Positions 16,011 through 20,330 of a DNA stretch of 64,000 bases are shown in pieces. Origin of the DNA: Candidatus Kapaibacterium sp. (GTDB taxonomy: Bacteria > Bacteroidota > Ignavibacteria > Kapaibacteriales > JAEUSM01); contig JAEUSM010000002.1 in assembly GCA_016788785.1 (NCBI GenBank), forward strand, positions 1 through 64,000, in the 5' to 3' direction. The stretch's first letter is position 1. Each line of letters opens with the position of its first letter. The notes under the pieces were generated by a model. It searched no databases. It was not told the DNA's origin and worked only from the letters and a program-made list of their open reading frames with translations. The position numbers and the translations under genes were made by a program.

Positions 16011-17177
16011 TTATTTTCTGAGCTTTCTTAATATTCTGCCATCAAAACTCATTTCGTAAATATCTGCAATGTCGTATCTATCATAACTCATCGATACTGT
16101 TACAGTATTGTTAGTTAATGGTTTTACACTGTTTACCCTAAATAAACAGTATTTCTTGACAAAACTAAAATTATAAACTAAAACTAATTTCCCAGAGCTT
16201 AGAGTCTTTTCAACATCAATTACAAAAAATTCCTTAGTATTTAGTTTCTCTTTTGGAATTATCTTTGAAGAATCAATATTACCATGTATATCTAAAGGAT
16301 TTGGTATAAATTGACCTCGAATAAACGCTCCTACTAAATATTTACCATTTTGAGTAAAGTATAACTCACCACCATCTAAAGAAGTAATGAATAAAGAATC
16401 AAATTCTAAAAGTACATTATTTAAATAAAAAAAGTATTTTTTGTACCCATCAGAAAAAGGATCTTGATCATCTATTCTTACGAAATCACCATGCACTACA
16501 CGAAATATATTTTTACCATCACTTGAAATTGAAATGTTAAATTTAGGATCATTTATTGTTGGTGTTAATGTTTGATTCTGAATATGGTACATTCCATAGT
16601 TGCTTAAAACTACAAAATCATTACCAATTGAAGAAGTATTTAACCATCTTAATAAATTTGCAACTCCACTTCTCGGATTCATTCCATATTTACCAAAAAA
16701 GTCAGGAGAAACATCTTTTAAATCATTGTTACTCTGATTAAATTCATATAAGTATTGACCTTCAACATAACCTTTTCCATTTCCAATTGTGTCAGTAGAC
16801 AGCAAGATGTTTAACATTATTTTATTTTCATCATAAGGACAAGAAACTGCTGAACCAAGTGCTTCAAAGTTTAAATGGTTCGGTAACATTTTATTAAAGT
16901 CAATAAATGAAGATTGACCAGTACTTACATTTAATAAGTAATATCTATTAGTATAGTCAAGTGTATATAACAAAAAGTTACCTTGATTTGAAGATTGAAT
17001 TGAATAATAATACCAACTTCTGTTTTGAGAAAAAGAATCTAAATAATCAGGCCATTTACAATCTTTTACTTCGGGATATAAGCTTTTTTGAGGTTGTAAA
17101 ATATTAGACTCTTCACAACCTAACAACATTGCAAAGCATATACTTAATAATCCAAATAGTTTCAATGTTGTTTTCAT
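16011..17177 (-). CDS. Lipoprotein paralogous to the one at the left window edge
   Basis: A 388-residue lipoprotein. The signal peptide ends in the lipobox LLGC (about residues 18-21), followed by EES. No named family was recognised. Repeated DxxNKIML/YEFN/ISSDGKNIFRV-type segments suggest a beta-propeller of TolB or WD40 style. Central sequence (DVSPDFFGKYGMNPRSG) aligns with the lipoprotein at 1-881 (NITPSKFGKFGVNYPSG). Its ATG overlaps the stop of the upstream protease by 4 nt (ATGA), so the two are translationally coupled and may act together at the cell surface. The pair looks more AT-rich than its neighbours. Confidence 0.85.
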   Translation of the reverse strand: MKTTLKLFGLLSICFAMLLGCEESNILQPQKSLYPEVKDCKWPDYLDSFSQNRSWYYYSIQSSNQGNFLLYTLDYTNRYYLLNVSTGQSSFIDFNKMLPNHLNFEALGSAVSCPYDENKIMLNILLSTDTIGNGKGYVEGQYLYEFNQSNNDLKDVSPDFFGKYGMNPRSGVANLLRWLNTSSIGNDFVVLSNYGMYHIQNQTLTPTINDPKFNISISSDGKNIFRVVHGDFVRIDDQDPFSDGYKKYFFYLNNVLLEFDSLFITSLDGGELYFTQNGKYLVGAFIRGQFIPNPLDIHGNIDSSKIIPKEKLNTKEFFVIDVEKTLSSGKLVLVYNFSFVKKYCLFRVNSVKPLTNNTVTVSMSYDRYDIADIYEMSFDGRILRKLRK

Positions 17178-19705
17178 CGTATAACCTGTAAAGGGTAGCT
17201 ATAACTTTGGTTATTTTTATCTGTAACTATTACAGAATAGAATCCAGAAACCAAATGTTCAATTGATAAGTCATATTCATTGTTATTTACTTGAAAAGTA
17301 CCAACATTTGTACCGACTAAATTATAAATAATTATTTCTTTTATTAAATTTGAGTTATCAAAAGATGTAATTTTTATGGTATTACCACCTAGTAATTGGC
17401 TAACTTCGAAGCCATTGTTTTCTAAACTGTTTGATACTACACTTGTATTTTCAGGTTTATATCGCACGAATATTGACATAGCAGTTCGAATATTGTTAGT
17501 TTCTGGTATTAATATTGGATTATTTGGATCAATTCCAGGTCCACTTAAAAATTTATATTGAAATGAAACAGTTTGAATCTTTACTCTATCTGTAAAACCA
17601 GTCTCATTAAAATGTACTCTCATATTTGTTCTAAAGTCATCTCCACCTATACCAGATGCTATACCGGACATATTAATTTGGTATTTCCCGTTAAAACCAG
17701 TGTTCTCTTTACCTTTTACAAAGTCATGATCACCACCTCTCGTCCAAACATAAGCTGGGTTAGATGAGTTTACAATCCATTTTGGATTATTATACACTTT
17801 ACTAGTATTAATTTGTCTGGTTTGAATAATATAATCACCTGCTTTTAATGGTTTTGTTTTTGGTGAATCGTCTAAAACTGTATATTTTGATTGTGTACTC
17901 CATGGACCAAATGTGAAATTATCCCAATCTCCAATGTGTTCTAAGGTATACCTTGTAGAAAGCATATTATAGAAATTATCTAATTGAATGTGACCATATC
18001 CTGTAAAGTCATCATAATAGTTATTTGTTCTCCAATGAGTATTAATATCTAATGCACTTGAGGATATCAAACCTTGATAATCTTCAGGTTCCATTTTTAT
18101 GTCTGGCCATTCTGATTTAGATTTTTGATGAATAAGTGCTGCAAAACCCGAAACTTGAGCTGCGGCCATTGAAGTGCCATCAAAGCAACTATAACCTTCA
18201 TTTAAATTAATAGTAGAGTAAAAATACTCTTCTTCATTATTGGGTTGACTACAATCACCTGCAGGTGCAATTACATCCATTAGACCACTCCAAAGTGAAT
18301 AATCTGTTGTAATTAAATTTTGATTTGCTCCACCAACAGAAATTACCTTTTGGCCTTCCCATCCAGATGGAAATGTTCTTGTTGTTTTAGTAATATCGCT
18401 GGTATAATTTCCACGAGCTGCAACCACAACTACTTTATTTTCATATGCCCAATTAATCGCAGTTTGTTCTTGAACATCCATTGCTTTACCACCATAGGCA
18501 AGATTGATGATATCGCAACCATATCCATATCTTACAATAGTTTCATTTGGTAATGTTACTGAAGCACCTGAGAGAGTACTTGCTAATCTTATCGCTCCAA
18601 TGGTTTGTGCAGTAGTAAGATTTGTTTTTAATCCATAAAGTAAAACACCAATATTTTCATCGGGGCCATTCCATCCACCTGCAATTCCTGCAATACTATA
18701 TGGATCTGCTACACATTCATTGTAATTTGTATATGCACCAATTATACCTGATATTTGAGTACCATGAGTAGAATTTGGCCTAATATCAATATTTCTATCA
18801 ACAAAATTCCAACCATCTCTAACTTTTTTACCAACCCCAAAGCCTTTACCTAAATCACAATGGTCATAATATATACCATTATCAATTACTCCAACTTTTG
18901 TGTTTGGAGTACCTTTATTATGATCCCAAGCAATAGGCATTCCTATTCTTGTTAAATTTTTTTGATGGCTTGAATATAGCAAATCATCTGGAATTGTAAT
19001 ACTATATAATTCTTTATAAAAATTGAAACTAGCTCCATAAATATTTTCTCTGTATAACCAATTAAGATTAACAATTCCATTTACTACACTTGTATCATTA
19101 GATAAATGTAGTGCTAGAAAAAGATAATCTTCGCATCCGATTGTATCTCCATTTCTCGTGATCGAAATAGTATCCATACATGGGTTTGCAAAAGTTATTC
19201 TACTCAAAGTATCAGCGCCGATTGAATGAAGATAACTTCTTAAGTTTGAATCTACAACTAACTCATTAATATTAAATCTCTCATTTTGTAAATAACTGTA
19301 AATACTTTCAACATTTGAAAACATTGTTTTTTCAACTTTTTTACTATTCTCATTGTTTTCTTCAAACATCCAGTTAAAACAAAGTAAGTTTAAGTTCAAA
19401 GCTGAGCTTTTAAACTTGACAATAATCTCGTTTTTAATATAAGAACTATCTGGTGGGGGCCAAGATACCATCAATGTGTCACCAAAATCATCAATTTGTA
19501 CAGGGTATTGAAATTGTGAAAATACTGAGGGTGCAGAAATTAAAATCATAAGGAAAGCAAAAAGTAGGGTTTGCTTATACCAATTGATTTTGCCGATCTG
19601 CCGGTCTGCCGGTCTGCCGGTCTGCCGGTCTGCCGGAAGCGTTGAACAAAGAGAAAAACTACCAAAATTTTTGGTAGGGGTCGAAGGGTTAAATAAACCA
19701 TTCAT
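17174..19705 (-). CDS. Subtilisin-like (S8) serine protease with T9SS sorting tail
   Basis: An 843-residue exported protease. The catalytic triad is visible: Asp275 (VGVIDNG), His314 (STHGTQISG) and Ser512 (GTSMAAAQVSG), with oxyanion Asn433. The C-terminal 80 residues (IIIYNLVGTNVG, then SGFYSVIVTDKN) are a type-A T9SS sorting domain, so it should cross the outer membrane. Residues 24-38 are encoded by 8-bp tandem repeats, upstream of the hydrophobic signal core (about 46-60). The ATG at 19705 has the Shine-Dalgarno AGAGGT. No in-frame ATG lies between the repeat and the signal peptide's basic part, so expression appears to depend on repeat number. The next gene overlaps by 4 nt. Confidence 0.9.
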   Translation of the reverse strand: MNGLFNPSTPTKNFGSFSLCSTLPADRQTGRPADRQIGKINWYKQTLLFAFLMILISAPSVFSQFQYPVQIDDFGDTLMVSWPPPDSSYIKNEIIVKFKSSALNLNLLCFNWMFEENNENSKKVEKTMFSNVESIYSYLQNERFNINELVVDSNLRSYLHSIGADTLSRITFANPCMDTISITRNGDTIGCEDYLFLALHLSNDTSVVNGIVNLNWLYRENIYGASFNFYKELYSITIPDDLLYSSHQKNLTRIGMPIAWDHNKGTPNTKVGVIDNGIYYDHCDLGKGFGVGKKVRDGWNFVDRNIDIRPNSTHGTQISGIIGAYTNYNECVADPYSIAGIAGGWNGPDENIGVLLYGLKTNLTTAQTIGAIRLASTLSGASVTLPNETIVRYGYGCDIINLAYGGKAMDVQEQTAINWAYENKVVVVAARGNYTSDITKTTRTFPSGWEGQKVISVGGANQNLITTDYSLWSGLMDVIAPAGDCSQPNNEEEYFYSTINLNEGYSCFDGTSMAAAQVSGFAALIHQKSKSEWPDIKMEPEDYQGLISSSALDINTHWRTNNYYDDFTGYGHIQLDNFYNMLSTRYTLEHIGDWDNFTFGPWSTQSKYTVLDDSPKTKPLKAGDYIIQTRQINTSKVYNNPKWIVNSSNPAYVWTRGGDHDFVKGKENTGFNGKYQINMSGIASGIGGDDFRTNMRVHFNETGFTDRVKIQTVSFQYKFLSGPGIDPNNPILIPETNNIRTAMSIFVRYKPENTSVVSNSLENNGFEVSQLLGGNTIKITSFDNSNLIKEIIIYNLVGTNVGTFQVNNNEYDLSIEHLVSGFYSVIVTDKNNQSYSYPLQVIR
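19592..19636. repeat. 8-bp tandem repeat (GCCGGTCT) within the protease coding start
   Basis: Four exact GCCGGTCT units occupy 19600-19631, preceded by the variant GCCGATCT (19592-19599) and followed by the partial unit GCCGG (19632-19636). The unit length is not a multiple of three, so gain or loss of one unit shifts the reading frame of the minus-strand protease. The array is far more GC-rich than its surroundings. Confidence 0.9.
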
Positions 19706-19954
19706 AGGGTTACCTCTTATATAAAGGTTGATAAAAAAATGTATAATACAATGTGTATCCTGATTTTATGTGAAGAAAGTAAAAATATGAACCCCTTTTT
19801 TCTCTTAACTCTCGCTTTTTCGTCTACATCACTAATTAACTACTTATATCTTTAATCTCTCCATGGATTAAATTACAGCTTTAATTTTAATTCTCCAAAT
19901 TTTTTGTATAATTTTTTGATATTTCTTAAAATTAATATGGAATTTGTTGTTTTA

Positions 19955-20330
19955 TGCCCCCCTCACCCCCACTTCGACTTCGCTCAGTGACCGCTCTCCC
20001 TCGTAGGGGAGAGGGAAAAGTATAGTGATGTCCCCTCACCCCCACTGAGACTACTCTCAGTGAACGTTCTCACTTGTTGAAAAGAAGGGGATTATGATTT
20101 GCCCCCTCTCACAAACCCTCTCCCCAAAGGGGCGAGGGAATGTACCGTCATAATTTTGAGACGCAAATAAAGGGCTTCTCTATGATACTCTACAAAACAT
20201 ATAAGACTCCCTCTCCCCACCGATGGAGAGGGGGCATTCTGAAAGAAGATTCCACCCCGCCACACTTCGACTACGCTCAGTGACCGGTGGCACCCCTCAA
20301 GAGGGGAACCCATAACTGGAGCCACCCAGC
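19955..20330. repeat. Dense REP-like repeat region upstream of the protease operon
   Basis: In the gene-free stretch 19706-20363 the right half is packed with palindromic elements. Two copies of a 23-bp CACTTCGACT...GTGACC element lie at 19970-19992 and 20263-20285. CACTGAGA (20043-20050) pairs perfectly with 20055-20062. At least three CCCTCTCC/GGAGAGGG hairpins lie near 19994-20016, 20116-20138 and 20206-20232. The left half (19706-19954) is AT-rich and probably holds the protease promoter; I see no gene. Confidence 0.75.

Follow-up and report, generated by a model that had tools for sequence, protein, structure and literature searches.

An octamer repeat array at the 5' end of an S8 protease gene family as a probable phase-variation switch in an uncultured Kapabacteriales bacterium

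Results and Discussion

The protease, its lipoprotein partner and the octamer array

The window, by which we mean the whole stretch of 64,000 nucleotides analysed (contig JAEUSM010000002.1 of Candidatus Kapaibacterium sp., assembly GCA_016788785.1), encodes on its minus strand an S8 (subtilisin-family) protease of 843 amino acids (17174-19705) and a lipoprotein of 388 amino acids predicted to form a beta-propeller (16011-17177), whose start overlaps the protease stop by ATGA, as the first-pass annotation had read from the letters. The Peptidase_S8 domain (PF00082, 114.5 bits) covers residues 268-571 of the protease, and the catalytic D275, H314 and S512 together with N433 lie within conserved motifs. 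A type IX C-terminal sorting domain is weak in the window protein (Por_Secre_tail, 17.5 bits, below the cutoff of 27). Because such a domain is matched by 13 of the 14 family members at E values up to 0.01 (best 2.3e-14), and because SprA of the type IX secretion system (TIGR04189, 855 bits) is encoded at C18, the family probably consists of surface or secreted proteases. The AlphaFold2 model of the lipoprotein is beta-propeller-like (pLDDT 77) with many propeller matches, TolB included, all at low TM-scores, so that we assign the protein by prediction to this fold class only. The protease-lipoprotein pair occurs in eight copies in the genome, a lipoprotein gene of this one family lying directly or closely downstream of all eight protease copies. 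As the lipoprotein is such a constant downstream partner, it is plausible that it would switch together with the protease through the ATGA coupling.

Within the coding frame of the protease, between its one suitably placed ATG and the signal peptide, lies a 45-bp array with a unit of 8 bp (19592-19636, minus strand). It begins 69 nt from the protease ATG (19705) and consists on the sense strand of five exact copies of CCGGCAGA followed by TCGGCAAA; the plus strand accordingly reads GCCGATCT, four times GCCGGTCT and GCCGG. The signal peptide INWYKQTLLFAFLMILISAPSVFSQ (19514-19588, minus strand) follows directly 3' of the array. Tandem Repeats Finder placed its top-scoring array of the window here (19591-19636, period 8, 5.8 copies, 97% matches), and the longest exact period-8 run in the window was 5.0 units compared to a maximum of 2.25 in 40 first-order Markov windows of equal size. 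Sequence and TRF thus bore out the earlier description of exact 8-bp units in the coding frame upstream of the signal peptide: a perfect tandem unit not divisible by three, in the 5' coding region and beyond chance expectation, albeit a short one with five to seven perfect units. The octamer contains no stop codon in any frame over the 24-bp cycle of its unit. In the protease frame of the window copy there is no ATG, GTG or TTG between the array and the hydrophobic core, and a scan of start codons agreed that the next in-frame ATG is at 19549. We rejected a translation start 3' of the array, since this sole ATG gives a truncated signal without positive charge.

Four paralogues in different registers

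The octamer array was found at exactly four sites in the 2.97-Mb assembly, each of them the 5' end of a paralogous protease, which rules out a dispersed intergenic repeat family; among 382 genomes of the class it was present in this one and in none of the 381 others. From the first start codon (ATG0) to the anchor ATCAATTGG the distance is 117 nt in the window copy (C3), 117 in C15, 109 in C12 and 160 in C16, giving registers of 0, 0, +1 and +1, respectively. C3 and C15 are thus equal in unit number and C12 is shorter by exactly one unit. C16 has, in addition, a single-nucleotide change in its leader and a degenerate segment ahead of the array, so that its register does not reflect unit number alone. 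Read from ATG0, the shifted copies C12 and C16 give peptides of only 40 and 57 amino acids; their bodies nevertheless stay open for 868 and 861 codons with the catalytic motifs kept, and a dN/dS of 0.16 between them indicates purifying selection. The array-less paralogues C6a, C6b, C4 and C6c start directly at an ordinary signal peptide. In C4 (L028 4978-7530) Glu replaces the catalytic Asp (VLEVGVDY), and this protease is possibly inactive.

We consider a simple-sequence contingency switch (SSR phase variation) to be the best explanation of the array, with a probability of roughly four in five. Slipped-strand mispairing in replication would add or remove 8-bp units, and the frame of ATG0 would then either reach the signal peptide and the protease (ON) or stop within about 40-57 codons (OFF). 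Four secreted S8 proteases would reuse the same cassette and switch independently, each with its downstream lipoprotein. Register differs among the paralogues and, as described below, tract length differs among sister species (G11, 11 and 9), variation that was read between paralogues and species with one genome compared per species. On this reading the number of units would vary within living populations, OFF copies would be silent and the lipoprotein would switch with the protease. The proposal of an on/off switch of a surface protease received strong comparative support from the four registers and from the mostly out-of-register repeats of the homologues, and the window copy is indeed in the ON state in the assembly, ATG0 (19703-19705, minus strand) being in register with the protease.

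Repeats in the homologues of relatives

An order-wide profile search retrieved homologues from 13 of 123 genomes. In genus g5, with three species, a poly-G tract lies inside the signal peptide, and its lengths of 11, 11 and 9 are all out of frame (the in-frame length is 10), as read from metagenome assemblies in which homopolymer errors of one base are possible. Poly-C tracts at the PPPD codons were found in G011 (LacPavin MAG_34_17; C14, out of frame) and in G230 (RIFOXYC2_FULL_35_21; C10, in frame). G398 has a poly-G12 after the signal peptide, out of frame, in a protein with a different N-terminal domain, which makes its tract less directly comparable, and in G393 a (TG)13 repeat lies upstream, ending 45 bp before the ATG. 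No 5' SSR was present in the other G011 copy, G025, G301, G284, G392 or G413. G-tracts of at least 9 are rare in these genomes: there is one in G004, which is the protease tract, two in G021 and three in G011. By one fixed definition applied to the region from -100 to +250, a strong 5' SSR was present in 8 of the 13 homologue-bearing genomes vs none of 200 control genes from the fetched loci (Fisher 1.4e-11, a value that overstates independence, as the eight represent about five separate origins).

The shifted copies could also be decaying pseudogenes and the in-frame copies ordinary genes with a chance repeat, as remnants of the module do exist in this genome (at C17 and at contig ends, see below). 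Such decay hardly fits shifted bodies that remain intact over some 860 codons under the constraint noted above with their catalytic residues, nor the out-of-frame gene of genus g5, which in each of the three species is undamaged and under constraint (dN/dS 0.18-0.22), and we give this explanation almost no weight.

Start codons and the leader

ATG0 is preceded by a Shine-Dalgarno-like GAGG read from the sequence (19713-19716, minus strand, 7 nt 5' of ATG0), and AGGT is kept in all four cassettes. The start sequence of C3, C12 and C15 is ATGAATG, which holds a second, overlapping ATG 4 nt downstream (19699-19701 in the window, minus strand) in frame +1. This is the register of C12, and the second ATG is the in-register start for a copy shorter by one unit. 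C16 does not have the second overlapping ATG; its in-frame ATG comes only at +88, just before the array. In the third register no copy of the cassette has an ATG or GTG start; C3 and C15 offer just a TTG at +56. The claim that slippage by one unit breaks the frame must therefore be divided: the register of ATG0 is lost as stated, but after the loss of one unit the result is not necessarily a full OFF, since the overlapping ATG opens that frame. It is likely that loss of one unit leads to use of the ATG at +4 with lower efficiency, which would give three output levels (strong, weaker and none).

The same start codons offer another explanation, in which the array is a tolerated coding repeat and alternative starts (ATG0, ATG+4 and, in C16, ATG+88) express every copy whatever its unit number, with no real switch. 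C12 is indeed open from ATG+4 and C16 from the ATG at +88, and the leader codons show no amino-acid constraint: there was no excess of synonymous change in the 23 leader codons, and thus no coding signature supporting translation of the leader. On the other hand, this would leave the third register without an ATG or GTG in any copy, the ATG at +88 of C16 is without a properly spaced ribosome site, and the homologues with poly-G and poly-C tracts, mostly out of frame, have no alternative start of the octamer-copy type. We therefore regard a merely tolerated repeat as unlikely, and phase variation, in which the alternative starts may be used as a weaker state, as the better account.

Inside the leader codons there is also a hairpin, CTACCAAAAATTTTGGTAG, followed by a T-run (19659-19677, minus strand); a search of this genome at up to two mismatches gave it for C3, C12 and C15 alone. 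In C16 a compensatory change replaces a C-G pair by T-A, and the T-run is eroded; the comparison covers four sequences. The hairpin could be an attenuator, a terminator or an RNA-stability element.

Exchange of the cassette between protease bodies

The upstream region, leader, array and signal peptide together form a shared cassette (19530-19960 in the window, minus strand), with 92% identity to C12 and C15 and 74% to C16. Between about -300 and +170, C3, C12 and C15 are about 85-97% identical to one another; beyond that point identity is about 50%. In a tree built from the protease bodies, from which the part encoded by the cassette had been cut away, C15 falls with the array-less C6a and C6b while C12 and C16 stand apart, and the octamer copies as one clade were rejected (AU p 1.3e-5), a result to be read with some caution as the tree has long branches. 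That the octamer bodies are not one clade, together with the drop in identity past +170, argues that the cassette was moved between protease bodies or homogenised by gene conversion. One further locus (C17:159569-161359, L073) has a cut-down cassette with the upstream part only (87% identical), directly followed by the C-terminal remnant of a protease and by a lipoprotein gene that is still intact, and reads as a deletion remnant of the module.

It could be argued from these observations, the abrupt end of 5' identity, the scattered octamer bodies and the shortened cassette before the protease remnant at C17, that array and flanking sequence act chiefly as a site of recombination, where near-identical cassettes permit gene conversion between paralogues and changes of unit number are a by-product. 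This would leave unexplained both the frame-breaking length of the unit and why other families carry frame-shifting tracts of unrelated sequence in the corresponding position. Recombination and phase variation can, moreover, both hold; as the main explanation we find a recombination site very improbable. The switch by slippage remains our preferred reading, with exchange of the cassette alongside it.

Both the window contig C3 (3-881, minus strand) and C16 (L013 3-881, minus strand) open inside near-identical lipoprotein genes, so that the assembly breaks at this repeat. An orphan lipoprotein copy lies at the left end of the window, and part of the upstream cassette is present at 921-1011.

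Relation to known systems

SSR phase variation has been studied best in host-adapted pathogens. The Neisseria opa family carries a CTCTT pentamer in the region coding for the leader peptide (PMC3960869). As in opa, the paralogues here share one frame-shifting 5' coding repeat, their bodies differ and are reshuffled by recombination, and the loci would switch singly; unlike in opa, the unit is 8 bp and lies upstream of the signal peptide core instead of inside it, and what is encoded, in an uncultured Kapabacteriales bacterium, is a protease accompanied by a lipoprotein and not an adhesin. NalP is a surface or secreted subtilisin-like protease whose phase variation comes from slipped-strand mispairing within the coding sequence (PMC5472700, PMC3723659), and is similar in being a phase-variable subtilisin-like protease; a poly-C tract is found also in the homologues G011b and G230. 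NalP is, however, a single-gene autotransporter, whereas the window family is multicopy with a putative type IX-type C-terminal domain. Pfam found no autotransporter domain in the 14 family members, and the window protein, with only S8 and Por_Secre_tail, does not have the C-terminal beta-barrel of NalP. In lic1A and lic2A of Haemophilus influenzae, CAAT repeats occur together with multiple start codons that fall into two frames (PMC4019658). Here, too, the repeat is preceded by ATGs in two frames, and expression may take more than two levels, provided that the second ATG is used, but the lic genes have tetranucleotide units and encode LPS enzymes. A survey of H. influenzae, as far as the part considered here goes, places octanucleotide SSRs upstream of genes.

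The KLIKK proteases of Tannerella forsythia are, according to the part of PMC4404884 considered here, multicopy and secreted, one of them is subtilisin-like, and each adjoins a lipoprotein gene. To that extent they resemble the present family, multicopy secreted proteases beside lipoprotein genes in a Bacteroidota-type secretion background. Their lipoprotein gene is small and upstream, unlike the downstream predicted beta-propeller of about 350-390 amino acids here, and that part of the source describes no SSR switch. Our literature search found no paper linking Kapabacteria with phase variation, and none linking Bacteroidota, slipped-strand mispairing and phase variation. The kind of switch is known. 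What appears to be unreported in the literature searched is its occurrence in this clade, the octamer cassette, and several independent origins within a single protease family.

Here, SSR switching is indicated in uncultured Kapabacteriales known from metagenome-assembled genomes, in a single protease family whose members bear independent repeats of several types at this one end of the gene. It is quite possible, and we put it forward tentatively, that random switching of this family has several origins within Kapabacteriales, based each time on an unrelated repeat (an octamer, poly-G, poly-C or an upstream dinucleotide). In the window genome it would have become an exchangeable three-level cassette, which recombination sets in front of one protease-propeller pair or another, so that this uncultured and apparently environmental lineage would have a limited combinatorial set of surface proteases. 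This recurrence argues strongly that stochastic switching of extracellular proteases is under selection in Kapabacteriales, and raises the question of what drives it; phage, predation, a host and cheating on public goods are candidates. Gene callers annotate the shifted copies as intact with the start moved, and such switches therefore easily escape notice.

Some further observations were made among the relatives. In G021 and G004, proteins of 309-355 amino acids (L058 5905-6831, L059 5770-6834) fuse N- and C-terminal parts of the protease family with the catalytic domain missing, and a further homologue in G301 (L109/L112, C20:5720-8034), with no SSR at its 5' end, is interrupted by stops in mid-gene. 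Other poly-G/C tracts, of 10-14, precede chemoreceptor (methyl-accepting) genes in G021 and G013 by about 110-120 bp (L078 2411, L079 2493, L080 2440), possibly reflecting promoter phase variation of chemotaxis.
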